Below, piece by piece: positions 18,158 through 50,027 of a stretch of 64,000 nt of DNA. The DNA lies in contig NC_088302.1 in the NCBI RefSeq assembly GCF_032854445.1, forward strand, positions 57,140,237 to 57,204,236, read 5' to 3'. Under the pieces are notes generated by a model that saw only the letters and a list, made by a program, of their open reading frames with translations, ran no database searches and was not told the origin of the DNA. The stretch's first letter is position 1. Each line of letters opens with the position of its first letter. A program made the translations under genes and the position numbers. Source of the DNA: Liolophura sinensis (taxonomy: Eukaryota > Mollusca > Polyplacophora > Chitonida > Chitonidae).

Positions 18158-18159
18158 AG

Positions 18160-20164: not shown

Positions 20165-20313
20165 TTATTTCTCGGAACAGCCAATAACGCATGCGCACTT
20201 TGACCGAAGGTTGAACTTTCAGTTGGAGTCGACACTAACAATGGCGATCACTGGAACCCGGGCACTGGGATCACACTCTAGGGATATTTAAAAAGCTCCG
20301 CCGTAGTCACAAC
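20165..20313 (-). pseudogene. Orphan MRH-domain last exon, broken
   Basis: On the minus strand an acceptor (gttactgtag) is followed by 149 nt that parallel the last exon of gene A (35082-35236). The distance from the acceptor to GAGTGTGA is 35 nt in both. ECDPSARVPV and LRSKCAC are shared, and both end in GC..K and TAA. Here two in-frame stops (TAA early, TGA near the end) interrupt it. The TGA sits about where the conserved Tyr should be, the Arg position reads G, and the Glu is gone. No companion exons were found within several kb on that strand. Confidence 0.75.
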
Positions 20314-20639
20314 CTACAGTAACATACATGGCCGTACCTCGTACAATGCAGCCTGGCATTTGAGGTTTACTAAACTTTACTCGTCGTCTTCACAACAAGG
20401 GGAGGTAAACGGAACAAGAAAAAGTCTTCGACCACGTTTCTAGATATATGGACCTGCTTGAGAGAATGGGTGATGGGAAACCCCAGATAAAACTGACGCT
20501 GGATTGTTCACCCAAAGTGACCCGTTGTACTGTAGGCATCTGGAAATCTTCACTTTGTGTAGTTGGCATTTAAAACAGTAACACAATTAGTTGCGGGTCA
20601 GCAATATGCATCTTTAAAATGTGTTTTCTAACATGCTTT

Positions 20640-26400: not shown

Positions 26401-26499
26401 TATTATGCATTGTACGCGGGGTCTATGACTGGTTAAATATTGCGGTGTTTAGATACAAATCTGATTGACAATAGTAGTATGTATATGTTACTTTTGTGT

Positions 26500-27448: not shown

Positions 27449-27449
27449 A

Positions 27450-28189: not shown

Positions 28190-31100
28190 AACTCGTGTGG
28201 TGTGTACCTGATGGACTGTTGTGGGGTGTATAACCGATGGACCGTTGTGGCGTTTGTATCTGATGGACTGTTGTGGGGTGTATAACCGACGGACTGTTGT
28301 GGGGTGTGTACCTGATGGGCTGTTGTGGGGTGTGTACCTTATGGACTGTCGTGGGGTGCGTCCCTGATGGACTGTTGTGGGGTGTGTACCTGATGGGCTG
28401 TTGTGGGGTGTGTACCTGATGGGCTGTTGTGGGGTGTATAACTGATGGACTGTTGTGGGGTGTGTCCCTGATGGACTGTTGTAGGGTACGTACCTGATGG
28501 ACTGTTGTGGGGTGTATAACCGATGGACTGTTGTGGGGTGTGTCCCAGATGGACTGTTGTGGGGTATGTACCTGATGGACTGTTGTGGGGTGTATACCTA
28601 ATGGACTGTTGTGGGGTGTGTCCCAGATGGACTGTTGTGGGGTGTGTACCTGATGGGCTGTTGTGGGGTGTTTACCTGATGGACTGTTGCGGAGTGTGTA
28701 CCTGATGGGCTGTTGTGGGGTGTTTACCTGATGGACTGTTGCGGGGTGTGTACCTGATGGACTGTTGTGGGGTGTGTCCCTGATAGACTGTTGTGGGGCG
28801 TGTACCTAATGGACTGTTGTGGGGTGTGTACCGGATGGACTATTGTGGGGCGTGTACCTAATGGACTGTTGTGGGGTGTGTACCGGATGGACTATTGTGG
28901 GGTGTACACCTGATGGACTGTTGTGGGGTGTGTACCTGATGAGCTGTTGTGGGGTGTGTGCCTGATGAGCTGTTGTGGGGTGTGTACCTGATGGGCTGTT
29001 GTGGGGTGTACACCTGATGGGCTGTTGTGGGGCTTACACCTGGTGGACAGTTGTGGCGCGTATACCTGATGGACAGTGGTGTATGGGGTGTATACCTGGT
29101 GGACATTTGTGTATGGGGTGTCTGCCTGGTTTACCTGTTTGTGTATTGGGTGTATGCCTGGTGGACAGTTGTGCATGGGCGTATACCTGGTGGACAATTG
29201 TGGGGTGTATACCTGGTGGACAGTTGTGTATGGGGTGTATGCCTGATTGACCTGGTTGTATATGGGGTGTATTCCTGGGGGACATTTGTGTATGGGGCGT
29301 ATGCCTGGTGGACAGTTGTCGGGTGTATACCTGGTGAACGGTTGTGGAGTGTATACCTGGTGGACAGTTGTGTATGGGGCGTATATCTGGTGGACAGTTG
29401 TGTATGGGGCGTATATCTGGTGGACAGTTGTGGGGTGTATGCCTGGTGGACAGTTGTGGGGTGTATACCTGGTGGACAGTTGTAGGGTGTATACCTTGTG
29501 GACAGTTGTGGGATGTATGCCTGGTGGACAGTTGTCGGGTGTGTAACTGTTGGGCAGTTCTTTATGGGCCGTGTGCCTGCTGGACAGTTGGGTATGGAGC
29601 GTATGCCTGGTGAACAGTTGTCGGGTGTATACCTGGTGAACAATTGTGGAGTGCATGCCTGGTGGACAGTTGTGTATGGGGCGTATACCTGGTGGACAGT
29701 TGTGTATGTAGCGTACGCCTGGTGGACAGTTGTGGGGTGTATACCTGGTGGACAGTTGTCGGGTGTATACCTGGTGAACAGTTGTGGAGTGTATGCCTGG
29801 TGGACAGTTGTGTATGGGGTGTATACCTGGTGGACAGTTGTGTATGGGGCGTATATCTGGTGGACAGTTGTGGGGTTTATGCCTGGTGGACAGTTGTCGG
29901 GTGTATACCTGGTGAACAGTTGTGGAGTGTATACCTGGTGGACAGTTGTGAATGGGGCGTATATCTGGTGGACAGTTGTGTATGGGGTATATATCTGGTG
30001 GAAAGTTGTGGCGTGTATGCCTGGTGGACAGTTGTGGCGTGTATGCCTGGTGGACAGTTATAGGGTGTATACCTGATGGACAGTTGTGGCGTGTATGCCT
30101 GGTGGACATTCGTGACGTGTATGCCTGGTGGACAGTTGTAGGGTGTATACCTGGTGGACAGCTGTGGAGTGTATGCCTGGTGGACAGTTGTGGGGTGTAT
30201 GCCTGGTGGACAGTTGTAGGGTTTATGCCTGCTGGACAGTTGTCGGGTGTATACCTGGTGAACAGTTGTGGAGTGTATACCTGGTGGACAGTTGTGCATG
30301 GGGCGTATATCTGGTGGACAGTTGTGTATGGGGTATATATCTGGTGGACAGTTGTGGCGTGTATTCCTGGTGGACAGTTGTGGCGTGTATGCCTGGTGGA
30401 CAGTTGTGGCGCGTATGCCTGGTGAACAGTTGTGGGGTGTATACCTGGTGGACAGTTGTGGCGTGTATGCCTGGTGGACAGTTGTGGCGTGTATGCCTGG
30501 TGGACAGTTATAGGGTGTATACCTGGTGGACAGTTGTGGGGTGTATGCCTGGTGGACAGTTGTGACGTGTATGCCTGGTGGACAGTTGTGGAGTGTATGC
30601 CTGGTGGACAGTTGTGGGGTGCATGCCTGGTGGACAGTTGTGGGGTGTATGCCTGGTGGACAGTTGTAGGGTGTATACCTGGTGGACAGTTGTGGGGTGT
30701 ATGCCTGCTGGACAGTTGTGGGGTGTATGCCTGCTGGACAGTTGTGGGGTGTATGCCTGCTGGACAGTTGAGTATGGAGCGTACACCTGGTGGACAGTTG
30801 TAGGGTGTATACCTGGTGGACAGTTGTGGGGTGTATACCTGGTGGACAGTTGCGGGGTGTATGCCTGGTGGACAGTTGTTTATGGGCCGTGTGCCTGCTG
30901 GGCAGTTGAGTATGGAGCGTATACCTGGTGGACAGTTGTTTATGGGCCGTCTGCCTGCTGGACAGTTGTGGGGTGTATACCTGGTGGACAGTTGTGGGGT
31001 GTAGGACTGGTGGACAGTTTTGGGGTGTATGCCTGGTGGACAGTTGTCGCGTGTATAACTGGTGGACAGCTGGGTATGGGCTGTGTGCCTGGTTGACCTG

Positions 31101-31440
31101 GTTGTGGGGTGTAGGTCTATACCTGGTTAGTTGTAGGGCATATTCTTGGTGGACTGTGTATAGACTGAATTCCTGGTTAACAGTTGTGGGCTGTAATCCT
31201 GGTTGACAGTCGTCACAAGCGTAAACAGTGGACAATTGTGGGGTATATGCCGGGTGGACACTTGTGTGATGTTTCTGGGGTGACAGTTGTGTGATGTTTC
31301 CAGGGTGGACAGTTTGATAGATAATAGTGGGGTGTATACCTGATGGCATGTTGTGGGATATATACATTTATGGTTATATGCATGATGGACAATAGTAGAT
31401 GTATACCAGGTGGACAGTTGTCCAGTGTACACCTGTGCAC
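28190..31440. repeat. 3.2-kb minisatellite, 26-bp unit
   Basis: Roughly 120 units. The first 0.85 kb uses tgatggactgttgtggggtg tgtacc; from about 29040 the unit is ggtggacagttgtggggtgt atgcct, with frequent 4-bp longer variants carrying tgtgtatggggcg. Because stops are rare in every frame of the unit, open frames of up to 496 codons occur on both strands. None has a start context, signal or domain, and I treat all as artefacts. Confidence 0.95.
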
Positions 31441-33384: not shown

Positions 33385-33894
33385 TTACTTTGATACATCC
33401 CACTTCGGTAGTTTCCGAAAGCTGTCGACTTGACCTGGACAGGCACAAAGCGTGGTCAGCTACAGATTGTATACCAGATGAGGACGTTCCGGCGCAAAGC
33501 TGAGAGGAGATTCCCAGAACTACAGATTAACTTGACGTATGTTTTCCGCATGCTGTCCCCACCCTCGAATCGCAAATAAAGACGGGTGGGAACGCCTTAT
33601 CTGTGAACAAACTGAGCGGAACTTTACGTCATTATGCGGAATCGTTCCACGCCGATAATATTCTGACAAACTGCCTTGTTTGAACTTCAGGCAGGGGTTG
33701 AGGAAGAAATCAGACAAAATCCCGTACGAGGTTTTGAAGGCAGTTGTAGAATCTGATTTCCCCAGAGATCGTAGAGTAAGGGCATTGTTGTCACTGAATT
33801 TACAAGTACATGGAACTTCCATAACACAGGCTATTGTGTTGTGGTTTGCGAACCCAGTACGAGAGAAGAACAGTAAACCAAGTACGAGAACCAT
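33385..33894 (-). pseudogene. MRH-domain pseudogene D (intronless paralogue of gene C)
   Basis: The minus strand starts MVLVLGLLFFSRTG, nearly the signal peptide of gene C (49363-49965), then PCTCKFSDNNALTLRSLGKS and FFLNPCLKF. After that the frame shifts and about 30 bases corresponding to the CGDGDVAVCQ region of gene C are lost. LTTLCACPGQVDSFRKLPK reappears in another frame near 33400, matching LTSPCACPGHADSCGKLPK. So it covers the full length of gene C but has at least two frameshifts and lacks the VCQ sugar-contact block. It has no introns, like gene C, and its upstream DNA matches that of gene C too. Confidence 0.85.
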
Positions 33895-33952
33895 TCACCT
33901 GTGGGTATGTCACTTCCAAAGCAAGCTCTACTAACACAGTTGTAGTAATGTC

Positions 33953-33960
33953 TATATATA
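33953..33960 (-). promoter_or_regulatory. TATA-like box upstream of pseudogene D
   Basis: tatatata about 60 bases before the ATG at 33894, in the same relative position and context (atgtctatatata) as upstream of gene C. Conservation between the two copies supports it as the family promoter. Confidence 0.45.
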
Positions 33961-35081
33961 ACGTGTTATCACAGACCTGGTTTTCGTAAGGTTGTGATCA
34001 GATAAATGCACGTGCAAAGCCAGTTACGGAGTTTCACATTTTTATCCTTCTTTCGAGCATTTTGATAGCAGATGTTGTAATCGCTAGCCAAGTACAGAAG
34101 ACGCCAAATTGCCTTTAGTCACATATATTAAGTCTGTTAGCCAAATGTTGTCAGTTTTATCAGCTGGTACATACTAAGACTTACGTGTAGGTAGTATAAG
34201 TTGGTAAAACTGCTTTATGTTGTAACTTTTAACGTACCACCCGAGTTGCTTTCTTACCACCTCCATGCCGAAAGTGCAAAGAAAAATAGAAAGAGCCCTC
34301 AATCCCAGAAGAGTAAGCTAACTTCACGAGGACCTCGAGAATAGACGTGCGTGTCAAGAACTGGCCATTAAAAATGACAACATCACGACGTGGATTTTTA
34401 CAATTTATAAAAATCATTCATGTATATACAGATACATGGAATTACTATTCAATGCTTAAAATGCATGTACAAGTCACAACTGTTATAAGGTGGCATGCAC
34501 AGTGTACTGTCAGCACTTTCTGACATTATACTATAGACTAACAGTTCCTTCTCTGTACACCAGCCTAGACAGTGTATGCCATTGCATGGTTATCATAGCC
34601 AAAGGCAAATCCTCACGTTCACGGAGATCATGACAATCACGTGGTCAAATCCATCTTATCAGTAATAGGGCAGAAATTCATCCCTTATCTTTTCATTTTA
34701 TATCTACATTCACTTTCCGTTGTATACTTTAATATTTATTACGAACTATATTTGTCTGCGTGTTTGCTAGTGACGTGATCAGGCACTTTGGGACGGTTGA
34801 ACTTGCAAGTTTGCAATTACATTCTCGTTAATTTGTTTGAATAAAGGTGTATGTGATAAACAGATCATAAAGACTGTGGGTGTTTCGCGATGATGTATCA
34901 ACATCCAGTTGTTTAGGGTGGGGCTGTCGTATCAGTATGAACATGTAAAAATGTGTTTTCAAAAGACTGTTTTTACGATTATGAATGTTTTATCGATCAG
35001 CTAAAACAATAAACGACAATACGCAGAAATAGATGCAATGTAATAATGTATGTATAGGCCTGCAAGGCAGAGGGTCTATGG
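33961..35081. other. No gene recognised; possible poly(A) signal for gene A
   Basis: On the minus strand AATAAA at 34735-34740 lies about 345 bases beyond the gene A stop codon and is the first such signal I noticed. No coding segment seen. Confidence 0.35.
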
Positions 35082-35236
35082 TTATTTCTGTGGACAGCCG
35101 TTAAGACATGCGCACTTGGACCGGAGGCTGAAGCTATAGTGGTTGATGGGATTTTCTGTGGCACTGGCGAACACCGGAACCCGAGCGCTGGGGTCACACT
35201 CCAGGATCACTTGGAATGTTCTGTCCTTGTCTCCAC
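35082..35236 (-). CDS. Gene A, last exon
   Basis: Acceptor cgtacttcatag, then 155 nt in phase 1 encoding GGDKDRTFQVILECDPSARV, FASATENPINHYSFSLRSK and CACLNGCPQK followed by TAA at 35082-35084. It supplies Arg, Glu and Tyr of the sugar site. The same exon exists as a broken copy at 20165-20313. Confidence 0.85.
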
Positions 35237-38200
35237 CTATGAAGTACGAATGAATGGGCTTGCGACAAATGGGTCCGTCATATGGTACTCGTGTGAAAGT
35301 CAGTAGACTATAAGCTTACTTATGTCATAGTCATCCTGTCACATGCAACGTAATCGCAAGTGATGTGCTGTCCACCCAATATAAGCTTCGCATTACTTTG
35401 TACATAAGTAAAGAAATAAACATGTTTAATTTTAAAACACGTTTATCATAAAGTCAAACAAATATTATACCACCTTTACAGCAACGGTATAGTGTCATAG
35501 TGTTAACCAAAGCGTAACCCTGAAATCACCCCATAAAACAGACACTCGCAATTCCATTGGATAATGAACATTTAATGTTGAGGAGCTGAAAATCTAAGTA
35601 AAAACAGGGTGTATAGAAACCGCTAGGCTTATAATGATCAAGTACCAATCAACGACATTGTAAGATGTTTATGACAGAGCTCTGATTTCTGACGTTCTGT
35701 TTGCCAACCTTTCAGTAATGTTTCGGGAGATATGGTCGGGAGAGTTTAGATGTGGTCTGAATTTGTCTGTATGAGCTGTACGTGTTGATGTAGTAGATTA
35801 CATGTGGTCTGGTGTTGCCTGTGTTAGCTGTACGTGTTGATGTCGCAGTTTTATATGTGGTCTGAATTTGTCTGTATGAGCTGTACGTGTTGATGTAGTA
35901 GTTTACATGTGGCCTGGTGTTGCCTGTGTTAGCTGTACGTGTTGATGTCGCAGTTTAGATGTGGTCTGAATTTGTCTGTATTAGCTGTAGGTGTTAATGT
36001 AGAAGTTTACATGAGGTCTGGTTTTGTCTGAATTAGCTGTACATGTTAATGTAACAGTTTACACTTGGTGTGAATTTGCCTGCCTTATCTGTGCGTGTTG
36101 CTGTAGCAGTTTACATGTAATCTAAATTTGTCTGTATTAGCTGTACGTGTTAATGTAGGAGTTTACATGATGTCTGGTTTTCTCTGTATTGGCTGTATGT
36201 GTTGATGTCGCAGTTTTATATGTGGTCTGAATTTGTCTGTATGAGCTGTACGTGTTGATGTAGCAGTTAACATGTGGTCTGAATTTGCATGTATTAGCTG
36301 TACGTGTTGATGTAACAGTTTACATGTGGTCTGGTTTTGTCTGCATTAACTGTACGTGCTGATGTCGCAGTGTACATGTGATTTGGTGTTGCCTGTATTA
36401 GCTGTACGTGTTAACGTAGCAGGTCACACGCGGTCTGGTTTTGTCTGTATTGGCTGTATGTGTTGACTTAGCAGTTTGCATGAGGTCTGGTTTTGTCTGC
36501 ATTAGCTGTATGTGTTGACTTAACAGTTTACATGAGGTGTGGTATTGTCCGTATCAGCTGTATGTGCTGACTCAGCAGTTTACATGAGGTCTGATTTGTC
36601 TGTATTAGCTGTACGTCCTAATGTAACAGTTTACATGTGATCTGGTGTTGCCTGTATTAGCTGTACGTGTTGATGTAGCAGTTTACATGTGGCCTGATGT
36701 TGACTGTATTAGCTGTACGTATTGATGTAGCAGTTTCCATGTGGCCTGGTGTTGACTGTATTAGCTGTACGTGTTGATGTAGCAGTTCTCAAGACGTCAG
36801 GTTTTCTCTGTACTGTATGTGTCGAGTTAGCAATTTACATGAGGTTTGGTTTTGTCTGTATTGGCTGTATGTTTTATTATGTTTGGTGGTATTATCTGCG
36901 ATCTGGTTTTGTCTGTATTAGCTGTATGTGTTGACTTCACAGTTTACGTGAGGTTTCGTTTTCTCTTTCTTAGCTGTACGTGAAGATGTGGCAGTTTACA
37001 TGTGGTCTGGTTTTGTCTGTATTAGCTGCATGTGTCAAGGTAGCAGTTTGTATGCTGTCTGATTTTGTCTGCATTAACTGCGGTCTATTTTTGTATGTAT
37101 TAGCTGTACGTTTATTCGTGGAAAAATTGCACGTGGTATGGTCACGTTAAAGTAACATTTTACCTGATGTCTGTTCCTCCTTTCTGTATTATCTGCGCAT
37201 GTCGGACTAGCAGTTCACATATTCTCGTATTTATTTACTTATTTGATTGATATTTACGCCGTACTCAAGAATGCCACGGAGGTCCCGATACTATCTGTAT
37301 TACCTTATGACATACTTACCTGAGTATTGGATGGCGACTTGGCCATTGTAACCCGAAATGAAATCCACCGGAATCACTGCTCCAAGTCGGTATGTGTCAC
37401 TTGTCTGCCACAAACTATCATTGACTTGCTGACACGCCGATACGTTAGAACACACTCCGCCTGAAAATTAATGACCTTTGTTATTTGCGAAAAATTTGCG
37501 AAAATTAAGGTTGGTAAAGATTCTGGGGATTCCGATCGAGGTTGATTTGAACACTGAAGCCAGATGTGGCGCTATTTTCTTCCTGTTAGAAGTGGAGGTG
37601 ATACCCTGGTATATCTCTGCCCTGTTACAAATAGTATCAGACAGCAAGAAGCTCTTATCGCTGTTACGCTGTAAGTCACTGTTACACACTGGTGTTACAT
37701 TGCTATTTGCTGTTACATAATATTGCTAAACAGCCGTTTCATTTCTGCTAGACACTATGGTTACCCTGTTAGTTTTTGTAGCATGTTATTGTCACACTGT
37801 TGGTCACTGTCAGACACCATACCTACACTGTTACCCTGGACTTTGTCTCTCAACGTATAAGTTTAATATTCTTAAGTACGATGTAAAAAACCAATGTAAT
37901 AAATAACTAAATACATAACTAAATAACTAAATAACTAACTAGCTAACTAACTAAATAAATAAATAAATAAATATAGTTACACTCTTAGTTATTGTAGCAT
38001 ACCATTCTTGCACTGTTCGTCACTACCAGACACTATGGTTACATTGTTAGTTGTTGTAGCATACCATTGTTACACTATTGTTTCACTGTCAGAAACTATG
38101 GTTAAACTGTTAATTATTGTAGCATACTATTGTTGCACTGTTGATCACTGCCAGACACTATAATTACACTGGACAGTTATTGTAGCACACTATCGTTCCA

Positions 38201-39921
38201 CTGTTGTTACGCTGTCAGATACGATGTTTACACTGCTAGTTACTGTAGCATACTATTGTTGCACTGTTGGTCAATGTTAGGCACTATAATTATACTGTTA
38301 GTTATTGTAGCATAACATTGTTGCGCCGTTGGTTACTGTCACCCACCTTAGTTACACTGTTAGTTATTGTAGCATACCATTGTTACACGATTTGTTCACT
38401 GCCACCCTATGGTGACAATGTTAGTTATTGTACCATACTATGGTTACATTTATTTATTTATTTGATTAGTGTTTTACACCGTACTCAAGAATATTTCGCC
38501 TATCCGACGGCGGCCAGCATTATGGTGGGAGGAAACCGGGCAGAGCCCGGGGGAAACCCACGACCATCCCCACGTTGCTGACAGATCTTCCCACGTGCCA
38601 CTATGGTTACACTATTAGTTTTTGTAACATACCATTGTTACACTATTGATCACTGCAAGACACTATATGATACACTGTTAATTATTTTGGCATACTATTG
38701 TTGCACTGTAGGTCACTGTCAGACACTATGGTTACATTGCTAGTTATTGTAGCATACATTGTTACACTGCTAATCACTACAAGACGCTATGGTGACATTG
38801 TTAGTTATTGTAGCAAGCCACTGTTACGCTGCTGATCACTGTCAGACATTATAGTTATACTGTTAGTTATTGTGGCATACTATTGTTGCACCGTTGTTCA
38901 CTGTCAGACACTATGGTTACACTGTTAATTATCGTAGCATACCATTGTTACACTGCTGAGCACTGCTAAACACTATGTTTACATTTGTTAGTTATTGTAG
39001 CATACCACTGTTACACTGCTGATCACTGCCAGGCACTATGGTTACATTGTTAGTTATTGTAGCATACCACTGTTACACTGCTGATCACTGCAGGCACTAT
39101 GGTTACATTTGTTAGTTATTGTAGCATACCACTGTTACACTGCTGATCACTGCCAGGCGCTATGGTTACATTGTTAGTTATTGTAGCATACCACTGTTAT
39201 ACTGCTGATCACTGCCAGGCACTATGGTTACATTGTTAGTTATTGTAGCATACCACTGTTACATTGCTGATCACTGCCATGCACTATGGTTACATTTGTC
39301 AGTTATTGTAACATACCACTGTTACACTGCTGATCACCGCCGGGCACTATGGTTACATTTGTCAGTTATTGTAGCATACCACAGTTACACTGCTGATCAC
39401 TGCCAGGCACTATGGTTATACTATTAGTTATTGTAGCATACCACTGTTACACTGCTGATCACTGCCAGTCACTATGGTTATACTATTAGTTATTGTAGCA
39501 TACCACTGTTACACTGCTGATCATTGCCAGGCACTATGGTTATACTATTAGTTATTGTAGCATACCACTGTTACTCTGCTGATCACTGCCAGGAACTATG
39601 GTTATACTATTAGTTATTGTGGCATACTACTATAGTGGTCACTCTCGGTATAATTTCATGAAAATAATGTTTTGTTGTACATGTAACATAAAGAACTCAC
39701 CCAGCTTTAGTCCCGAACACGGATTGTAGAAGTAGCTATACGATACCGTGCCTTGGTTTGTTTTGGTTTTCAGAGGGGCGTAAGGGTTGTCCAGAAAGTG
39801 AAGGCTGATTGTTCCAGAGCCGTCTACGTATTTGCACGTGCAGGAGTCGATCTTCCTACAGGGCACGTGCTGGGGCAACACATCCGCCTGGGCACGCACA
39901 TACGCTTCGGAGACGAAACGT
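35082..39921 (-). CDS. MRH-domain (mannose-6-phosphate receptor homology) protein, gene A, three exons seen
   Basis: Minus-strand exons 39701-39921, 37320-37460 and 35082-35236 join in frame with phase 1 at both internal introns, giving about 172 codons. The product reads as a single MRH lectin domain: DSCTCKYVDGSG and YFYNPC (first strands and Cys), GVCSNVSACQQVN (Cys and Gln), GQVAIQYS, DRTFQVILECDPSA (Arg and Cys), TENPINHYSFSL (Glu and Tyr) and SKCACLNGCPQK at the end. MRH domains bind mannose-6-phosphate or high-mannose glycans through Gln, Arg, Glu and Tyr, and all four positions are filled. The N-terminus opens by an acceptor-like tcacattacag, so a signal-peptide exon is expected further upstream (above 39921) but I could not find it. 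No transmembrane segment follows, so a secreted or lumenal lectin is likely. The family call is by eye. Confidence 0.75.
35745..37215. repeat. 52-bp minisatellite inside gene A last intron
   Basis: Units with tgtattagctgtacgtgttg then atgtagcagtttacatgtgg tctgg repeat about 27 times at 52-53 bp spacing, degenerating at the right end. Confidence 0.9.
37229..37274 (-). mobile_element. SINE family A, tail fragment
   Basis: tatttatttacttatttgat then tgatatttacgccgtactca match the reverse complement of the family A tail. It lies 45 bases from the gene A middle exon. Confidence 0.7.
37320..37460 (-). CDS. Gene A, middle exon
   Basis: 141 nt between acceptor taattttcag and donor CTCAG then gtaagt, both strong. 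Open in the phase set by the flanking exons. Encodes GGVCSNVSACQQVND, TYRLGAVIPVDFISGYNGQV and AIQYS. Contains the conserved Cys pair and the Gln of the sugar site, plus two N-glycosylation sequons (NVS, NDS). Flanked by a 62-bp array on one side and a 52-bp array on the other. Confidence 0.8.
37862..37978 (+). mobile_element. SINE family A tail with AAAT/AACT simple repeat
   Basis: taatattcttaagtacgatg and taaaaaaccaatgtaataaa followed by repeated aactaaata units. Confidence 0.65.
38452..38597 (-). mobile_element. SINE family A copy inside the 62-bp array
   Basis: tttatttgattagtgtttta, caccgtactcaagaatattt, cggcggccagcattatggtg, gggcagagcccgggggaaac and acagatcttcccacgtgcc are the reverse complement of the family body. 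Array units continue on both sides. Confidence 0.9.
39701..39921 (-). CDS. Gene A, first visible exon
   Basis: 221 nt from a cacattacag acceptor to a donor reading CTGG then gtgagt. It encodes RFVSEAYVRAQADVLPQHVP, then DSCTCKYVDGSGTISLHFLD and SYFYNPCSGLKL. It carries the C.CKY.DGSGTI start shared with gene B exon 48529-48658. Ends in phase 1. The left splice site is moderate; the donor is strong. Confidence 0.75.
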
Positions 39922-39984
39922 CTGTAATGTGATTAAAACAGTGATAAGAACTCAAATTGTGCGTGAATTGCTTTAATAACGATG

Positions 39985-42065
39985 CATTGTGAATGGTGCT
40001 ATTTCCGGGGAAACACCGCTCACATTGTGTTGTGAATGGCGCTAATTCTGGGAAAACACCACCGATACTGTGTTGTAAACGGCGCTAATTCTGGGAAAAC
40101 ACCGCTCACATTGTGTTGTGAATGACGCTCATTCTGGGGAAACACCACTCATACTATGTTGTGAATGGCGCTAGTTCCAGGGAAACACCGCTCACATTGT
40201 GTTGTGAATGGGGCTACTTCTGGGAAAACACCACTGATACTGTGTATGAATGGTGCTAATTCTGGGGAAAACTCAACTGATACTGTGTTGTAAATGGCGN
40301 NNNNNNNNNNNNNNNNNNNNNNNNNNNNNNNNNNNNNNNNNNNNNNNNNNNNNNNNNNNNNNNNNNNNNNNNNNNNNNNNNNNNNNNNNNNNNNNNNNNN
40401 NNNNNNNNNNNNNNNNNNNNNNNNNNNNNNNNNNNNNNNNNNNNNNNNNNNNNNNNNNNNNNNNNNNNNNNNNNNNNNNNNNNNNNNNNNNNNNNNNNNG
40501 AATGGCGCTAATTCTGGCAAAACACCACTGATCCTGTGTTGTGAATGGCGCTAATTCTGGGAAAACACCACCGATACTGTGTTGTAAACGGCGCTAATTC
40601 TGGAAAACACCGCTCACATTGTGTTGTGAATGACGCTCATTCTGGGGAAACACCACTCATACTATGTTGTGAATGGCGCTAGTTCCAGGGAAACACCGCT
40701 CACATTGTGTTGTGAATGGGGCTACTTCTGGGAAAACACCACTCATACTGTGTTATGAATGGTGCTTATTCTAGGGAAAACTCAACTGATGTTGTGTTGT
40801 GAACGGCGATAGTTCCAGGGAAACAAACTGATGACGTGCTGTGAATGAAGCTAATTCTGGGAAAACACCACTGATGCTATGTTGTGAACGGCGCTAGTTC
40901 CAGGGAAATACACTGATAACATGCTGTGAATGGAGGTACTTTTGGGAAAACACCACTGATCCTGTGTTGTGAATGGCGCTAATTCTGAGAAAACACAACT
41001 CATATTGTGTTGTGAATGGGGCTAATTCTCGGGAAACATGTCTGACACTGTGTTATGAATGGCGCTAATTCTGGGAAAACACCACTGATACTGTGCTGTG
41101 AATGGAGCTACTTCTGGGAAAACACAACTGATACTGTGTTATGAATGGTGCTAGTTCTGGCAAAACACCACCGATATTGTGTTGTGAATGGGGATAATTC
41201 TAGGAAAACATCACTGATACTGTGTTGTAAATGGCGCTAATTCTGTGTCGTGAATGGGAAATAATTCTAGGAAAACATCACTGATACTGTGTTGTAAATG
41301 GCGCTAATTCTGTGTCGTGAATGGGGATAATTCTAGGAAAACATCACTGATACTGTATTGTAAATGGCGCTAGTTTCAGGGAAACACACTGATATTGTGC
41401 TGTGAATGGAGCTAATTCTGGGAAAACACCATCGATACTGTGTTGTCAATGGGGATAATTCTAGGAAAACACCACCGATACTGTGTTGTGAATGGAGCTA
41501 ATTCTGGGGGAAAAAACACCACTGATACTGTGTTGTGAATGGAGCTAATTCTGGAGAAAAAACACCACTGATACTGTGTTGTGAATGGCGCTAGTTCCGG
41601 GGAAACACCGCTCACATTGTGTTGTGAATGGCGCTCATTCTGGGGAAACACCACTCATACTATGTTGTGAATGGAGGTACTTTTGGGAAAACACCACCGA
41701 TACTGTGTTGTGAATGTCGCTAATTCCAGGGAAACACACTGATATTGTGTTGTGAATGGGGCTACTTCTGGGAAAACACCACCGATACTGTGTAGTGAAT
41801 GTCGCTAGTTCCAGGAAACACACTGATACTGTGCTGTGACTGAACCTAATTCTGGGAAAACACCACCGATATTGTGTTGTGAATGGAGCTAATTCAGGGA
41901 AAACACCACCGATACTGTGTTGTGAATGTCGCTAGTTCCAGGGAAACACACTGATATTGTGCTGTGAATGAAGCTAAATCTGGGAAAACACCACTAAAGC
42001 TATGCTGTGAAGGGAGCTATTTCTGGAAAAACACCACTAAAACTGTGTTGTGAATGGCGCTAGTG
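39985..42065. repeat. 43-bp minisatellite containing the assembly gap
   Basis: Unit gtgaatggcgctaattctgg then gaaaacaccactgatactgt gtt repeats about 48 times with frequent substitutions (ctagttccaggg variants). The 200 N at 40300-40499 lies inside it. Confidence 0.9.
40300..40499. other. Assembly gap of 200 N
   Basis: Exactly 200 undetermined bases within the 43-bp array. The round number suggests a placeholder, so true array length is unknown. Confidence 0.95.
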
Positions 42066-42069
42066 CCGG

Positions 42070-42345
42070 GAACCTTTGTGGCCTAGTGGTTAGCGCGCTG
42101 GCGCACTGAAATGGCTCAGGAGTCTCTGAATAATGCGATGGCTGTGAGTTCAAGCTCAACCCAGCTGGCCTCCTCTTTAGTCGTATGTGCGAAGACCTGT
42201 CAGCAACGTGGGGGATGGTTGTGGCTTTGCCTGATTTCCTCTCACTATAATGACGGGCGCCGTCGTGTCAGTGAAATATTGCATACTGTTACGGTAAAAA
42301 ACACCAATGACATAAATAGATGTAATTATATAAATAAATTCGTGC
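42070..42345 (+). mobile_element. SINE family A, full copy with tRNA-like head
   Basis: Head: A box gtggcctagtggttagcgcg and B box gtgagttcaagctc, as in a tRNA gene. Then body blocks cctgtcagcaacgtggggga, ggcgccgtcgtgtcagtgaa and tail ggtaaaaaacaccaatgaca. It separates the 43-bp array from the related 44-bp array. Confidence 0.9.
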
Positions 42346-42349
42346 ATGT

Positions 42350-42841
42350 TGTTAATTCTAGGTAGAATACCACTAAGACTATGCCGTAAATGCTGCTAAT
42401 TCTAGATAGAATGTCACTAACTCTGTGTCGTGAATGCTGCTAATTCTAGATAGAATGTCACTAACTCTGTGTCGTGAATGCTGCTAATTCTAGGTAGGAT
42501 GCCACTAACTCTGTGTCGTGAATGCTGCTAATTCTAGATAGAATGTCACTAACTCTGTGTCGTGAATGCTGCTAATTCTAGGTAGGATGCCACTAACTCT
42601 GTGTCGTGAATGCTGTTAATTCTAGATAGAATGTCACTAACTCTGTATCGTGAATGCTGCTAATTCTAGATAGAATGTCACTAACTCTGTGTCGTGAATG
42701 CTGCTAATTCTAGATAGAATGTCACTAACTCTGTGTCGTGAATGCTGCTAATTCTAGATAGAATGTCACTAACTCTGTGTCGTGAATGCTGCTAATTCTA
42801 GGTAGGATGCCACTAACTCTGTGTCGTGAATGCTAATTATA
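42350..42841. repeat. 44-bp minisatellite, left block
   Basis: Unit gtgtcgtgaatgctgctaat then tctagatagaatgtcactaa ctct, about 11 near-identical copies at exact 44-bp spacing. Recognisably related to the 43-bp unit on the other side of the SINE. Confidence 0.9.
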
Positions 42842-42842
42842 G

Positions 42843-43190
42843 GAGTGAGTGAGTGAGTGAGTGCTTGATGTTTAGCGCCATACTCAACAATTTTTCAGTC
42901 ATATGACAACGAAGGAATCCTTAGGGTGTATGTAATGTGCCTCGTTGTTGCAGGGCGTATTTCTACCTCTCTTTTATCTAGTGCTGCTTCACTGAGACGA
43001 CTTACCGAAGGCAAGTAAATCATCCCTCCCGAGCCATTATGCTGATACGGGTCAACCAGCCGTTGCACTGTCCCCTTCATGCTGAACGCCAAGCGAGGAA
43101 GTTACAACTTCCTGTTAGTCTTAGGTGTGATCCTTGATCCTTGTGCTCCGAAGCGGAGGCTCTACCAACTGTGTTATCCGACCCGGTTCT
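42843..43190 (-). mobile_element. SINE family B copy inside the 44-bp array
   Basis: Starts with (GAGT)n, then tttttcagtcatatgacaac, cttaccgaaggcaagtaaat, catgctgaacgccaagcgag, gaagttacaacttcc hairpin, and a tRNA-like end ctctaccaactgtgttatcc. Reverse orientation, near full length. Confidence 0.9.
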
Positions 43191-43730
43191 AATTCTACGA
43201 AGAATGTGGCTAATACTATGTCGTGAATGCTGCTAATTCTAGGAAGAATGTCGCTAACACTGTGTCGTAAACGCTGCTATTTTAGGTAGAATGCCACTAA
43301 CACTCTGTCGTGAATGCATGCTAATTCTATGTAGAATGTCGCTAATGTTGTGTCGTTAATGCTGCTAATTCTCGACGAGTGTCACTAACACTGTGTCGTA
43401 AATGCAGTTAATTCTAGGAAGAATGTCACCAACACTGTGTCGTGAATTGTGCTAATTCTAGGTAGAACGTCGCCAATAATATGTCGTTAATGTTGCTAAT
43501 TCTAGGTAGAACATCAATAACACTGTATCGTGAATGCTGCTAATTCTATGTAGAATGTCGCTAATACTATGTCGTTATTGCTGCTAATTCTGGGAAGAAT
43601 GTCTTTAACACTATGTCGTGAATGCTGCTAATTCTCGGAAGAATGTCGCTAATGCTGCTAAATCTCGGAAGAATGTCACAAACACTGTGTCGCGAATGCT
43701 GCTAATTCCACGAAAATGCTACAAATAGTG
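43191..43730. repeat. 44-bp minisatellite, right block, degenerate
   Basis: Same unit as 42350-42841 with many substitutions (ctaattctaggaagaatgtc, gctaatactatgtcgtgaat). Confidence 0.85.
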
Positions 43731-44037
43731 TCAATTTGAATCTACTAATTCACTAGAGATCACGATGATGAGTTTCACTTAAGAACACTTTTATCAGAAG
43801 AACTCGAACGTATTAAAAAATAAAGGTGTAGATGACAGCACAGTGGAACAGTAACGTCTACCATGGTTCTAACCTTAATTCAAACATACAAGCCCTACCG
43901 TAAACTCTCCACCATTTGGCTGACATACTACAAGCCGTTACCGAATGTTTCTGGGTATTGCATAGTATAAGTGATATTCTGGAACACGCAAGTCGTCTGC
44001 TGCTTCACGCCGCATGATTGAACACGCAAGACGAGGT
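43731..44037. other. No gene recognised
   Basis: AT-rich. A final exon of gene B might be expected here or nearby on the minus strand, but no segment with CAC/Cys-rich MRH ending was found. Confidence 0.35.
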
Positions 44038-44170
44038 AACAGGCAATGTCTGAACCAAGATTCAGCGCGAAAACAGGCAATGTCTGAACCAAGATTCAGC
44101 GCGAAAACAGGCAATGTCTGAACTAAGATTCAGCGCGGAAGCAGGCAATATCTAAACCAAGATGCAGACT
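44038..44170. repeat. 34-bp tandem repeat, 4 copies
   Basis: aggcaatgtctgaaccaaga ttcagcgcgaaaac at 44041, 44075, 44109 and a degenerate fourth. Confidence 0.9.
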
Positions 44171-44437
44171 GTGTCTGGTAAATATTTACAAAATGGGGTG
44201 ACTTGGTGGTCTTTACGTATACACCCACGACATTTATACAACAATAGTTAACTGTAATGGACATTCCAGGTAAATAATTGCCACACAAACTTTCAAAACA
44301 ACCTTCAACACAAACCAAATATACGTTCCAGACGGTAAACGTAATCAGTATCCAACTGTGTATCTTCTTAATGTATAAGTTTTTGATAATCAAATATATG
44401 AATAGTGAAGAATTACTATGAATATGTCAATACTCAC

Positions 44438-44522
44438 GTAGTCCTTTCGGCTCACCGTCACCAACTCTAGAACCGGTATTTCTCGTGCTCCTCTATCACA
44501 GATTAACTCCACGGTAGATTGT
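44438..44522 (-). CDS. Gene B, last visible exon
   Basis: 85 nt after acceptor tacctgtcactgttgtag, entered in phase 2, encoding QSTVELICDRGAREIPVLEL and VTVSRKDY, to a good donor (TAC then gtgagt). If the donor is not used, the frame adds about 11 codons and stops with no final Cys pair. Which is right cannot be decided here. Confidence 0.6.
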
Positions 44523-47500
44523 CTACAACAGTGACAGGTACAAGAATATATACGACAGATGTTTAGGTTACGAGTAGTCCACAATGACTCAACACTTCTG
44601 TGCTACATGTCCAGGCGAACGACATTTTTGGTAAAATTCTAACGCTGGTATTTGCAGTTCGCGCCTTCAAAAGTTAATCTTCTTGTTGGTTTCTTGTGTA
44701 TACACAAGTAACAAATTAGTAACTTCGCCACAAATCATATTATATATTACCATCTCTTCGATACCGAAGAAACTTATCGTGGCGTTTTAATAAACCGTGA
44801 AATACGTCCTTTTGTCAGTTTACCTCAGTTAGCGGTTTATTTGTGTATATGCAAAAAGGTAACAATATACATGTACAGGCTTCCCAGGACCATGGTTTAA
44901 ACAGAATTGGGTAAAACGAAATGCAGAATGTTGAATAAAATTTGAGTGAGTGAGTGAGTTTAGGGTTTAACGTGGTACTTTCAGTTATGTGACGATGAAA
45001 GAGTCCTTTGAGTGCATGTACGTGTACAAGTATCTGTAACGTGCAGTGCCGCTTCACTGAGGTGATTTACCGAAGGCAAGTAAACTGCCCCACCCGAGCC
45101 ATTATACTGATATGGGTCAACCAGTCGTTGCACTATCCCCTTAATACTGAGCGCCTAGCGAGGAAACGGTTGACTGCTTCTCTTTGATTGAATACGTCCG
45201 TGCGTCTTACTTTATAATCTTTCCTAAGTGTACTTCTTTGGGGATCTGGCCCTGATTTGGAATGTCTAAATTGGTTGGCCAGTACTATACGAATGTCTTT
45301 TTCGACGTGAAGATTCGAGAACTTCTTGTCCGCCAGCATATTCCTGGTTTTGCATAATACATTATAAAAGACTACAGCACAGAGAATAAAACCTGAGAAA
45401 TGAAGACAGTGTGGTTTTTGTCAAATGTTCACTCGTAACCTGTGAAGTACGACCCCTTGTCAATTTACCTCAGTTAAAGTTTTATTCTAACTGTTCATGT
45501 ATATGTTTAAAAAGGTAGCAACACGGACGTCCCTCGAACCATGATTAAGGCTGAATTATGTAAAACAGTATATATGTTTCTGCTGTTTAAGGAGTGTGAA
45601 CTTGAAATACTTGCCTGCCAGATGTGCCGCTGTAGATCAAGGACACGAAGTTGTCACTGTCCACTTCAAATCTGACGCCAGATGGCTTGCCTATGTCTAT
45701 GTTACGCTCCGTGGCCAGTCCAAGATTTTCCCGTTCACAAAGGGACACATCCTTGCACTGGTTAACACTTGCCTTCTTATTGCTGATGCTGAAACCTACA
45801 AGTAAAAACGATGATGTAGACTAACGCAAATATGGAACGAATGTGTTCCGCGTTGTTAATATTTCTTCTTAAAGTTGGTTTTCCATAGCAACACATAAAA
45901 CCAAAACAAAGAATTTTTGACAATTATACATGCAGGCATTTTATGGAGTTTTTTAGGTTCACCGATGACCAAACGTGGCAAAACTGTACAAAACAATAAC
46001 TTATAATGTCGCACTACATATTTGTTTTGTCTGGAAAGAGCATTGCGGTCCTTCATTCTTCTATTCCTAAATTTTATTTGCACTAAATAAAAGTGGAAAA
46101 CGTAAAATCCTAATGGTTGAAGAACATGATGGAGTAACCACTGGATACAGGTATCCACGAAACCACGAATGTTCACTGGTATCTGTACCCACGGATGTGT
46201 AGTGGTATCTGTAACCACACAGGGATACAGGTATATGTAACTACAGATTGGTACGGGTATCTTAACCACAGATTGGTACGGGTATCTGTAACTGAAAATG
46301 GGTACAGCTACATGTAACCACAGTTGGGTACGGGTATCTGTAACTATAGATCTGTAACTACAGATGAGTACTGGTATCTATAACCACAGCCCAATCTGTG
46401 GTTATCTGTAACCACTGTTATCTGTAACTAAGATGGGTAGGGGTATTTGTATCTACAGATGGTTACGGGTATCTGCAACTACAGATGGGTACTGCTATCT
46501 GTAACTAAGATTGGTAGAGGTATTTGTATCTACAGATAGAAACAGGTATCTGTAACTACAGATAAGTGCAGGTATCTATAACTACAGCTAGGTATTGGTA
46601 TCTGTAGCCACGGATGGGTACAGGTTTCTGTAACTGCCGATGAGCACTGGTACCTATAATCACGGGTGTGTAGTGGTGTAACTACAAACAGGAGCTCGTA
46701 TCTATAACTACCGATGGGTACACGCATGTGTTATCCCGATTAGGTACAGGTATCTGTAACTACAGATGGGTAGGCCTACAGATACCTGTAACCACTGACT
46801 GGCACAGGTATCTGTAACTACCAATGGGTACATCTATCTATAGCTACCAATCGGTACAAAAATCTGTAATTACAGAAGGGTACAGGTATCTGTAACTGTA
46901 GATGGGTACAGCTATCTGTAACTACCAATGAGTAAAAGTATCTATAATTACAGATGGGTATAAGTATTTGTAATGGTTATAAGTGGGTATGAGTATCTGT
47001 AATTGTATCTGTGAGATCGGTATAAGTATCTGTAATTACAGAAGGGTACAGGTATCTGTAATCACAGATGCGTACTGCTATATGTAACCACAGATGAGTA
47101 CAGGTATCTGTAAAAACAGATGGGTGCGTCTGTCTGTAACATCAGATGGGAACGCAAACTGCAACAACACATGGGTAAGGTCTTGTATGACAACAGATGG
47201 GTACGGTTATCTGTATCACAAATGCGTGCAAGTATCTGTAACTACAAATGGGTGTGGCCACATATAACCACAGATGAGTACGGGTATATGTAGGAAGCGA
47301 TGGGTATGAGTATCTGTAACTGCAGATGCATACTAATATCCTTAGGCACAGAGGGGTACAGGTATCTGTAACCACAGATGGGGACAGGTATCTGTACCTA
47401 CAGAGCTGTACGGCTATTTGTAACTACAGATGGGTACTAATATTCTTAAGCACAGATGGGTGCAGGTATCTGTAACTACAGAGCTGTACGAGTATCTGTA

Positions 47501-48658
47501 ACTACATATGGGCACAGGTATCACTAACCAGAGATGGCTACAGGTATCTATAACCTGAGATGGGTACGGGTATCTATACGTCAGTGGGCAACATGGAAAC
47601 TCACATCACCGCGTACTCCATAAGGCGTCAAAGTTGCTGGAAGAAACTAAAGATACCATAGGAACGCCTTTCATTTAAGGCTGACGAGGTTTACTGAATA
47701 TACAGGGAAAATCATGGAATATGTCTTACTCATTTTACTCAGTCTTCTTTCAGAAAAGGTATCGTCTATTCAGAAGTGATATTCCTCCATCATAACCAGA
47801 TTTGTGCGCGTTTTTCGTTAACATTTGTCATTAACTGGTTACTAACAGTGATATTGATGATTGTGCGTAGACTTTTTTCCGAGCCATGATGAAGAAATTT
47901 TAGACGCAGGTTTAACCCTTGTTTTAATCAGTACTGCCTCGTTTAACTCAAGAACATCCGACTGGCTAAGTATGCTTCTGTTGGTGCCAGAATATTGTGT
48001 CTGATTGGTTGACATGTCCAACGTCTTCGGCATAGCGTTTTAGTTGGACAGCACAATAAATATATAAACAATGGTTCTAGTGTAAATGAACACTCTTGTG
48101 ATATGACCAATATCATGTTACAAGGTATGTCACAGACCCAAACAGGTGACACGAACAGAAACCAGATGTTATATATACCACCAACACGGGTTCTGCAGGT
48201 ACTGATTGTATTCGGAAGTAGTGTACTGGATAGGGTATGTGGTGTCAGACTACAGAGTCATAGAGGTGATTGGTAAAGTATTTAGTTATTTATTTGATTG
48301 GCGTTTTGCGCTGTTCTCAAGAACATTTCTCTTATACCACGACGGCCAGAGTTATGGTGGGAGGAAACTGGTGCAGAGCCCGGGGGAATCCCCACGACAT
48401 TCCGCGGGTTGCTGCAGACGTTCTCACGCGTGGCCGGAGTGTAAACCTGAACTCACAGCGACCACAGTGATGGGAGGCTCTTGCATCATTGTGCCCTGAC
48501 ATGTAATGTAATCAGATGTTATGCCTACCCTGACACGGGTTGTACAGGTACTGATTGTGACCGGAAGAAGTATACTGGATGGGTGTCTGCGGTGAATTAA
48601 GGGCCCACAGATTAATGGTTCCACTTCCGTCAGACATTCGACATGAACACTCATCTTC
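44438..48658 (-). CDS. MRH-domain protein, gene B, three exons seen
   Basis: Minus-strand exons 48529-48658, 45615-45795 and 44438-44522 join with phases 1 and 2. Reading: DECSCRMSDGSGTINLW and NQYLYNPCQ (matches CTCKYVDGSGTI and YFYNPCSG of gene A), QCKDVSLCERENLG, SDNFVSLIYSGTSG, then RQSTVELICDRGA and SRKDY. Same domain order as gene A, so an MRH lectin relative. Differences: the Gln after the second Cys is Glu (LCER), and the residue six before the candidate Tyr is Thr, not Glu, so two of four sugar contacts look lost; Arg (eight before the Cys) and Tyr remain. The second intron starts with GC. Neither the first (signal) exon nor the last part with the final Cys residues was found, so the gene may be incomplete or a pseudogene. 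Confidence 0.65.
44797..44945. repeat. Dispersed repeat X, long copy 1
   Basis: ccgtgaaatacgtccttttg, gtcagtttacctcagttagc, gcaaaaaggtaacaat and gaccatggtttaaacagaat parallel 45442-45590 over about 145 bp. Confidence 0.65.
44943..45165 (-). mobile_element. SINE family B copy, 5'-truncated
   Basis: (GAGT)n start, tttcagttatgtgacgatga, cttcactgaggtgatttacc, gaaggcaagtaaactgcccc and aatactgagcgcctagcgag; stops at the hairpin region, so the tRNA-like head is missing. Confidence 0.85.
45166..45441 (-). other. 68-codon open frame of unknown nature
   Basis: Minus-strand frame 45133-45339 reads MLADKKFSNLHVEKDIRIVL and later STLRKDYKVRR. The RKDYK then gtaaga end resembles the RKDY then gtgagt end of the gene B exon at 44438, and repeat X lies upstream of both. 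This might be an old duplicate exon, but similarity beyond the end is poor. Confidence 0.2.
45442..45590. repeat. Dispersed repeat X, long copy 2
   Basis: tgaagtacgaccccttgtca, atttacctcagttaaagttt, taaaaaggtagcaaca and gaaccatgattaaggctgaa. Best match to 4585-4640 at its left half. Confidence 0.65.
45615..45795 (-). CDS. Gene B, middle exon with GC donor
   Basis: 181 nt. Acceptor tttttacttgtag enters in phase 1; the donor is GGCAG then gcaagt, the classic GC-AG consensus. Encodes FSISNKKASVNQCKDVSLCE, ATERNIDIGKPSGVRFEVDS and NFVSLIYSGTSG. Exits in phase 2, matching the next exon. Confidence 0.75.
46140..47600. repeat. ~26-bp minisatellite inside gene B first visible intron
   Basis: About 55 degenerate units of ggtatctgtaactacagatg ggtac. 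The unit contains atctgta and tacagat, so it is partly self-complementary and could form hairpins. Confidence 0.9.
47601..48189. other. No gene recognised
   Basis: Intron sequence of gene B by position; no repeat or domain recognised. Confidence 0.4.
48190..48266 (-). pseudogene. Duplicated, broken 3' half of gene B exon 48529-48658
   Basis: The minus strand reads DTTYPIQYTTSEYNQYLQNP then CWW, against PIQYTSSGHNQYLYNPCQ in the intact exon, and the following intron bases (tataacatctgg) also match (gcataacatctg). A TAG interrupts the frame and the donor is destroyed. A SINE A copy lies immediately upstream (48281-48475). Confidence 0.75.
48281..48475 (-). mobile_element. SINE family A copy
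   Basis: tatttatttgattggcgttt, gcgctgttctcaagaacatt, acgacggccagagttatggt, tgcagagcccgggggaatcc, and a head-proximal gtaaacctgaactcacagcg that is the reverse complement of the B-box region. Confidence 0.9.
48529..48658 (-). CDS. Gene B, first visible exon
   Basis: 130 nt between acceptor aatttcttcttcag and donor CAGG then gtaggc. Encodes EDECSCRMSDGSGTINLWAL and PIQYTSSGHNQYLYNPCQ, ending in phase 1. A broken second copy of its 3' half lies downstream at 48190-48266. Confidence 0.8.
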
Positions 48659-48660
48659 CT

Positions 48661-49362
48661 GAAGAAGAAATTCTTGTGAAAGTATTTAGTTTGCAAGTTC
48701 ATTCATGTCCAATATCAACGACTTAACACCGTGGCCTACTCCAAAAATGTGCCTCGAAATCCGATGACTGAGCTTTGGAACTGAAAAACCGACTATGCAT
48801 TTATTTAATGGAAGGGTGAACAAAAATGTTATGTAAATCTAAACTGAATAGAACGCGTACAATACTATAGGTCCAAATACTATGTAGTATTTAATTACAA
48901 TAATTAATCAAACAAACAAAAATCAAAATTAACAATAAATTGTATTACAACCTATGTCAGATATCTGGCAGGGTGAAATCAGTCCCCTATTAGCGCTTTC
49001 GTTTCTCGGGAGTAACTATATGTATTTTAGGGTGTTCAGTCTTTTTTTGCAACCAGCCTGCCATAAAAAGTCCACAGGTTTTTGCTTGGTATCAAAATAG
49101 TGGAAATTGGAAACTTTGGGAAGGTATGAGTTTTAATGACGAAAGTTTGAAATTCTGGGCGAGAGGACACAAGGACTGAGACTAGTGGGGATAAGGCATA
49201 GAAAGGCCAAGGCAAGAAAGTCAAGATTTTCTTGCTGCTTTCTTACAGGCTGAGGTTTCTTTTACAAGTAAACCAGATCTCATGTTACGGACACATTCTT
49301 GAGTGTGTCACTAATGCAGAAAACAGAGCAAATAAATAAGTAATGGAGTAATAAAACATGGA
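48661..49362. other. No gene recognised
   Basis: Between gene C and gene B. A minus-strand AATAAA at about 48801 lies some 560 bases past the gene C stop and could serve it. A signal-peptide exon for gene B should lie here if gene B is complete, but I did not find one. Confidence 0.35.
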
Positions 49363-49965
49363 TTAGCCACAGTTCCAGAATGACTGGACCTGCCTTTTGG
49401 ACGATACCTTCAGACAGTCAACTTTGGGGAGTTTTCCACAGCTGTCGGCATGACCTGGGCAGGCACAAGGTGAAGTCAGCTCTAGGTTGTATTCTTTCAG
49501 AGGGTCTTCGGACACAAAACTCAGGGTAGATTCTGTAGCGTTACTACATGTCAGTTTGATGTATGTCTTCCTTTCGTTATCCCCATCCTCGTATCGTAAA
49601 TAGAGACTTGTGGAGTCGCCATCCCTGTGAACAAACTGAGCGGAACTCTGCGTCCCGCAGCTGTAGTTCCCAAACTGCCCCTGGCCAATGACATCCTGAC
49701 AAACAGCCACGTCCCCGTCCCCACAAGATCCCTCAGTGAATGTCAGGCACGGGTTGAAGAAAAAATCGTAAGACTGTTGGACGTTTAAGATCTTGAAAGC
49801 AGCTGTGGAATCTGATTTCGCCAGAGATCGTAGACTAAGGACATCGCCATCACTGAATTTACAAGTACAAGGATCTTCATTAATGCAGGCGTTTGTGTCC
49901 GCGTCTGCAGCGGAAAATAGAAAAGTGAATCTGATCAGAAAGAGTAAACCTAACACGAGAACCAT
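49363..49965 (-). CDS. Intronless secreted MRH-domain protein, gene C
   Basis: A 200-residue protein from ATG at 49965, intact in one exon. Residues 1-20 (MVLVLGLLFLIRFTFLFSAA) are a clear signal peptide. Then CINEDPCTCKFSDGD (about 27-41), FFFNPCLTF (68-76), GDVAVCQDVIG with Gln (85-95), QFGNYSCG, SLYLRYEDGD, RKTYIKLTC with Arg eight before Cys, SEDPLKEYNLEL with Glu and Tyr six apart, and SPCACPG, followed by a Cys-containing tail to SFWNCG. This is the MRH domain plan with all four sugar-contact positions (Q, R, E, Y). There is no transmembrane segment, so it is probably secreted or lumenal. Two N-glycosylation sequons (NYS, NAT). Genes A and B, on the same strand, have introns where this one has none. 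Confidence 0.85.
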   Translation of the reverse strand: MVLVLGLLFLIRFTFLFSAADADTNACINEDPCTCKFSDGDVLSLRSLAKSDSTAAFKILNVQQSYDFFFNPCLTFTEGSCGDGDVAVCQDVIGQGQFGNYSCGTQSSAQFVHRDGDSTSLYLRYEDGDNERKTYIKLTCSNATESTLSFVSEDPLKEYNLELTSPCACPGHADSCGKLPKVDCLKVSSKRQVQSFWNCG

Positions 49966-50019: not shown

Positions 50020-50027
50020 TATATATA
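50020..50027 (-). promoter_or_regulatory. TATA-like box of gene C
   Basis: tatatata on the minus strand, about 55-60 bases before the ATG at 49965, leaving room for a short leader. The same element sits at the same place before pseudogene D (33953-33960). Confidence 0.5.

Follow-up and report, generated by a model that had tools for sequence, protein, structure and literature searches.

How many genes are encoded by a run of small, cysteine-rich domains on one strand of a chiton contig, and what kind of protein do they make? The DNA in question is a stretch of 64,000 nucleotides from Liolophura sinensis (contig NC_088302.1, here C8, positions 57,140,237 to 57,204,236), which we call the window; coordinates without a contig prefix count from its first letter. 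An earlier interpretation made from the letters of the window alone, here the sequence-only reading, saw five or six genes or relics built on the mannose-6-phosphate receptor homology (MRH) domain: an intact, intronless gene C, split genes B and A, a broken duplicate exon, a pseudogene D, and an orphan last exon. Comparison with the rest of the genome leads to a different count. We consider it likely that C, B, and A are consecutive parts of one seven-exon minus-strand gene (49965-35082) predicted to encode a secreted protein of three MRH domains. With D and the orphan exon taken as one dead copy, the window would hold one three-domain gene and one relic.

The genome searched comprised 632 contigs and 609,464,459 bases, the window being C8:57140237-57204236. 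The assembly was first published under Liolophura japonica with 632 scaffolds and 609,495,693 bases (PMC11068029), ~31 kb more than the genome searched; its species name was later corrected to L. sinensis (PMC12441733).

The proposed joined gene and its copy outside the window

When C, A, and B were used as genome queries, a second copy (copy 1) emerged at C8:57254573-57245846, outside the window and ~64 kb from the window copy, with its parts in the same order and on the same strand. Its seven exons, joined through six introns in phases 0, 1, 2, 0, 1, and 1, give one frame of 490 residues with no internal stops. Because this intact copy joins all seven exons in a single open frame, we read the C, B, and A exons as one gene. 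The same six junctions occur in the window copy, the GC donor of intron 3 included; the last two are true to phase only in the frame of MRH3 itself. The full copy 1 protein, used as a genome query, recovers the window pieces exon by exon, as do the C, A, and B queries, and MRH1 of the window is 66% identical to that of copy 1 (E 2.5e-76), far above chance. When the exons are joined, the order is signal peptide, MRH1 (C), MRH2 (B plus the beginning of the first exon of A), MRH3 (the remainder of A), and stop, with no membrane anchor encoded. The parts of the window copy are as follows.

50022..50027, minus strand: TATA-like box (TATATA), 62 nucleotides 5' of the start codon
49408..49965, minus strand: exon 1, signal peptide and entire MRH1; ends in phase 0 (...VDCLK, then GTATCG)
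48529..48658, minus strand: exon 2, beginning of MRH2 (EDECSC...NPCQG); phase 0 to phase 1
48180..48245, minus strand: broken and incomplete repeat of the exon 2 end, within intron 2; limits approximate, by eye
45615..45795, minus strand: exon 3, central part of MRH2; phase 1 to phase 2; GC donor (GCAAGT) common to copy 1
44438..44522, minus strand: exon 4, MRH2; phase 2 to phase 0; ends ...KDY, then GTGAGT
39701..39921, minus strand: exon 5; its first 57 nucleotides, in phase 0, complete MRH2 (TFRLRSVCACPGGCVAPAR), followed by a net +1 shift, a TAG at ~39856-39858, and the start of MRH3 in a different frame
37320..37460, minus strand: exon 6, MRH3 (GGVCSNVSACQQ...IQYSG); from genome search and comparison with copy 1
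35082..35236, minus strand: exon 7, end of MRH3 (DRTFQVILEC...SKCACLNGCPQK, stop); from genome search and comparison with copy 1

The exon boundaries agree between the copies in several details. In copy 1, exon 1 ends ...RCIK, then GTAAGA, in phase 0; exon 2 opens in phase 0 with EDECSC; and exon 4 ends ...KNF, then GTAAGT, again in phase 0. The intronless gene C (49363-49965) is exon 1 plus 14 read-through codons. A TATA-like box lies 5' of exon 1 in all three copies (TATATA at -66 in the relic, TATAAA at -71 in copy 1). The protein stops after MRH3 in both copies (in the window, in the own frame of MRH3), the C-terminus being CPEK or CPQK, with the stop of copy 1 directly after CPEK. The sequence 3' of the exon 1 donor is uninformative, at 22% identity between copies versus 36% in the 45 nucleotides before the donor (both ungapped).

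The join between B and A is supported by exon 5. Taken by itself, B lacks a first exon and a C-terminus of its own. The C-terminal strand that MRH2 lacks, with its CAC..C motif, is located exactly in the first 57 nucleotides of exon 5, and in copy 1 exon 5 opens with IFRLRSVCACPGGC, which is the absent end of MRH2, and continues into MRH3. Over these 57 nucleotides the copies differ at 13 positions, 11 of which fall third in their codon when the joined frame is read (binomial p 0.0002); in the frame of gene A, 11 of the same 13 would fall on second positions. Moreover, the linker motif C.K.D.C.C heads both MRH2 and MRH3 only with the exons joined.

The placement of the pieces in the sequence-only reading was sound. 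Genome searches recover them, and all lie on the minus strand: C occupies 49363-49965, B runs from 48658, A spans 39.9-35.1 kb, D spans 33.9-33.4 kb, and the orphan exon is at 20.17-20.31 kb. The broken duplicate exon near 48.2 kb is real, as a partial repeat of the exon 2 end within intron 2. It was their grouping into five or six units that did not hold, since copy 1 makes C, B, and A exons of one gene rather than one intact and two split genes, and D and the orphan match exons 1 and 7. Within introns, we observe two further features. One is a set of tandem repeats, within intron 2 in copy 1 (near C8:57252.6-57252.9 kb) and near 48.2 kb in the window, whose unit comprises the exon 2 end and its splice donor (ACAACCCGTGTCAAGGTAA); an exon end has here become a minisatellite unit. 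The other is a run of N at ~40300-40499 in intron 4 of the window copy.

Condition of the window copy and the third copy

The window copy differs from copy 1 in ways that bear on whether it makes the full protein. Compared with copy 1, exon 5 carries its net +1 shift just 3' of CVAPAR, and with the TAG that follows, the product predicted from the assembly would comprise the signal peptide, MRH1, and MRH2, in 339 residues. The sequence-only reading missed this shift because it read A in the frame following it. The first donor (GTATCG) is also weak. Together, the two defects make a C-only or an MRH1-MRH2 product possible from the window copy, which counts against the three-domain reading for this copy.

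Could the window copy then be a pseudogene, or on the way to becoming one, with copy 1 alone functional? The shift, the TAG, and the weak donor fit this idea, as does the adjacent third copy, which is already dead, and we regard it as a serious possibility, although not the probable one. MRH1 and MRH2 remain open, and a truncated product would still comprise two complete domains. Further, per site, protein changes relative to copy 1 are far below silent ones in all three domains, MRH3 included. For MRH3, compared in its own frame (62% identity), the ratio of nonsynonymous to synonymous rates (dN/dS) is 0.14 (bootstrap 0.07-0.29, 398 of 500 replicates finite); for MRH2 (66% identity) it is 0.12 (456 of 500 finite); and for MRH1 dS is saturated, with an infinite point estimate (84 of 500 finite). 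Because dS is saturated, these ratios indicate purifying selection and carry no date. The conservation of MRH3 in its own frame implies one of three things: the shift arose recently, it is an assembly error, or splicing to an internal acceptor bypasses it. A one-base error is possible at the 14x HiFi coverage of the assembly (PMC11068029), and splicing to any of three AG sites inside exon 5 would preserve the MRH3 frame while sacrificing the last MRH2 strand.

Two further pieces lie 3' of the gene.

33388..33894, minus strand: D, the exon 1 (MRH1) remnant of a dead third copy; from nucleotide comparison, with many insertions and deletions
20168..20314, minus strand: orphan exon 7 relic, with internal stops; from genome search and nucleotide comparison

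Placed in the order expected for a third copy, both resemble the window copy more closely than they resemble copy 1. The D exon 1 region has 69% nucleotide identity to the window copy versus 58% to copy 1; the orphan aligns with exon 7 of the window copy across 129 columns at 72% nucleotide identity, and with copy 1 in a match of 43 bases plus two short pieces. Judged by sequence, D and the orphan at 20.2 kb look like the two ends of one dead third copy and together count as a single relic. Between them, a search for traces of exons 2-6 gave chance-level matches only, none convincing.

Elsewhere in the window, minisatellite-like arrays on the minus strand at 28892-31126 and 26423-27525 contain very long open frames (744 residues; rich in His, Thr, and Pro) in several frames, which are probably repeat artefacts rather than genes. 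By eye, 8414-10900 (plus), 17129-18205 (minus), and 25013-25903 (minus) hold pieces of retrotransposon polymerase and a 296-residue frame resembling mariner/Tc1 transposase.

Family membership, predicted secretion, and the putative sugar site

By both profile and fold, the gene product is a protein of the MRH, or P-type lectin, superfamily, as the sequence-only reading had recognized by eye. A profile built from seven domain sequences and run against the PDB matched 10 sequences at E <=10, all of them MRH proteins (CI-MPR, CI-MPR domains, GNPTG, and CD-MPR), the best being CI-MPR at E 6.5e-18, summed across its repeats. For the fold comparison, MRH1 was modelled with AlphaFold (mean pLDDT 62). 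Foldseek ranks 1-29 are all entries of MRH proteins, and on superposition the 44 rows scoring Z 11.8 to 6.7 are all MRH folds (CI-MPR, CD-MPR, ELAPOR1, GNPTG, OS-9, XTP3-B, glucosidase II beta, and Yos9), the next row falling to 2.8. The full copy 1 protein exceeds the Pfam cut-off for ATG27 (35 versus 27 bits), the only Pfam model listed at E <=1. When the seven domain sequences were scanned singly, CIMR matched three (best E 0.00037) and ATG27 three (best E 0.0011).

Several results pull the other way. First, the best single CI-MPR repeat reaches 24.1 bits (E 0.00026; domain 5 alone, E 0.00056), and MRH1 as a single query against the PDB finds no meaningful match. Second, a number of Pfam scores fall below cut-off: MRH1 against ATG27 (E 0.017) and PRKCSH_1 (0.17), window MRH3 against CIMR (21 versus 22.5), and the window MRH1-MRH2 protein against ATG27 (23.7 versus 27). 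Third, the MRH3 model (pLDDT 45) is too poor for a structure search. Finally, the canonical loop-C Cys pairs with a Cys preceding the Tyr, and neither is present in any of the six domains. As CI-MPR domain 5, by alignment, likewise lacks this pair, the feature divides subtypes rather than members from non-members. Genome searches with the family models missed the gene: CIMR gave one weak, sub-threshold exon, and ATG27 found tail exons elsewhere. That both fail indicates that exon-by-exon family searches are insensitive.

The 490-residue protein of copy 1 has a signal peptide, five N-glycosylation sequons, and 31 cysteines, and its maximal 19-residue hydropathy beyond residue 30 is 1.13, with no hydrophobic span after the signal peptide. 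On these features the protein is predicted to be secreted. The sequence-only reading had proposed a tandem array of small secreted lectins. Its secretion (as predicted from hydropathy) and its tandem duplication survive, whereas the small separate versions give way to one three-domain protein, with one copy beyond the window and one dead.

In a register taken from CI-MPR domains 5 and 9, we located the Gln, Arg, Glu, and Tyr that we take to be the sugar-contact residues of the MRH site. Both copies retain all four in MRH1, and the window copy retains them in MRH3 as well. MRH2 has lost Gln and Glu in both copies, and MRH3 of copy 1 has lost Glu, the latter a point against sugar binding by that domain. 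From these residues alone, the product is most likely a soluble glycan-binding protein, with putative sugar binding. The protein would leave the cell, and its MRH1 would bind glycans of the mannose type, possibly phosphorylated, as would MRH3 in the window copy; MRH2 would be a non-binding spacer, as only some CI-MPR domains bind sugar. Two sites per chain would increase avidity. The window copy as assembled would yield MRH1-MRH2 only. In CI-MPR, four of the 15 domains bind sugar, and neighboring domains raise the affinity of domain 5, which binds phosphodiesters (PMC7481795). The genome also contains matches to the Stealth domain of GlcNAc-1-phosphotransferase (two exons), NAGPA (one exon), and CD-MPR (multi-exon), which make phosphomannose-type ligands plausible.

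The domains might instead have retained the MRH fold and come to bind proteins rather than sugars, as CI-MPR domain 11 does with IGF-II. The lost residues in MRH2 and in copy 1 MRH3 would be expected of such a protein, as would the missing loop-C disulfide. But all four residues persist in MRH1 of both copies and in window MRH3, and CI-MPR domain 5, which lacks the loop-C cysteine, does bind sugar; we regard protein binding as a real but less likely possibility. With sugar binding as the preferred reading, we propose tentatively, and with less than even confidence, a soluble, multi-site P-type lectin in which the MRH domain, elsewhere a sorter of glycoproteins within the cell, has been tripled, freed of the membrane, and secreted in chitons, where its extracellular targets would be mannose or phosphomannose glycans (in defence, the egg coat, or mucus), the copies having diverged after duplication in which domains keep the sugar site.

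Related proteins, gene number, and meaning

Comparison with known P-type proteins sets the chiton gene apart from each of them in architecture. CI-MPR (IGF2R) is the best profile and fold match and shares tandem MRH domains with sugar residues in only some, but it has 15 repeats, a transmembrane span, and a sorting tail, in contrast to the three repeats, without span or tail, of the chiton gene; the CxC motifs at both ends of each chiton domain are a further difference. CD-MPR (PF02157) has the P-type fold (Z 10.0 with the MRH1 model), but it is a single domain with a transmembrane span and tail, whereas the chiton protein has three domains and no hydrophobic span. PF02157 was absent from the Pfam matches of the three proteins scanned. 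ATG27 (PF09451) has a C-terminal transmembrane span and tail that the chiton protein lacks, the copy 1 match ending at profile position 176 of 261, followed by the stop. GNPTG, OS-9, XTP3-B, and glucosidase II beta are soluble endoplasmic reticulum (ER) or Golgi proteins with the MRH fold (best Z 8.5 to 8.0); the chiton protein, unlike them, consists of three MRH domains only, and its CPEK/CPQK end is not an ER-retention signal.

Within the genome, the closest relative beyond the C8 locus is at C13:14106611-14109709, 29% identical to MRH1. By eye it shares the C.C and CVC..GC motifs; it differs in having one MRH domain, a membrane span, and a tail of the CD-MPR/ATG27 type (GLEIIPNYSFWSELPALVKDG) (by eye), the tail scoring above the ATG27 cut-off. 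A CD-MPR-type gene gives a multi-exon match at C9:31.38 Mb, and six more exon sites encoding transmembrane tails of the CD-MPR/ATG27 type lie at C11:32.3 kb, 53.4 kb, 8.07, 8.08, and 8.10 Mb and at C8:48.43 Mb. There are thus seven tail-exon sites, including that on C13, besides the C9 gene, some of them below curated cut-offs, and the P-type receptor family of this chiton is sizeable. Separately, C7:50792740-50792898 carries an MRH exon that by eye resembles ELAPOR (FHFLWRTQHACPICKPEDY), with a weak CIMR match. In Aplysia, 13 P-type lectins have been listed (PMC9334734), so expansion by itself is not new, and, with the chiton sites, the premise that MRH proteins are usually single-copy fails for molluscs. 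A literature search, with subscription journals mostly outside its scope, found no three-MRH or secreted-MRH protein and no work on chiton MRH proteins among the matches listed.

If C, B, and A were separate genes, B and A would need signal peptides of their own. We scanned for these in all three phases at two thresholds, with exon 1 of both copies as a control, and both were recovered. At the stricter threshold there were no candidates 5' of A or B within the window or 5' of copy 1 exon 2; 5' of copy 1 exon 5, three hydrophobic ATG frames passed, none with a good donor, and these frames speak for a separate start. The looser threshold gave two candidates for A, none for B, one for copy 1 exon 2, and seven for copy 1 exon 5. 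An earlier scan, run without a control and covering a single phase for A and for its counterpart in copy 1, found no candidates in the regions tried. A search for a last exon belonging to B gave none in the window and three in copy 1, without homology by eye. Three separate small secreted MRH genes are thus very improbable: the intact 200-codon frame of C with its own stop, the weak exon 1 donor of the window copy, and the few ATG frames just mentioned are set against a single open frame through seven exons in copy 1, a B with neither start nor C-terminus, and a first exon of A whose beginning has evolved as the end of the B domain.

The single three-domain gene corrects a reading that would split one gene into several. 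P-type lectins are familiar as membrane receptors or as ER and Golgi factors. A secreted protein of three MRH domains and no other would, if true, be a separate use of the fold, and it would offer a direct test of whether phosphomannose recognition operates extracellularly in molluscs.

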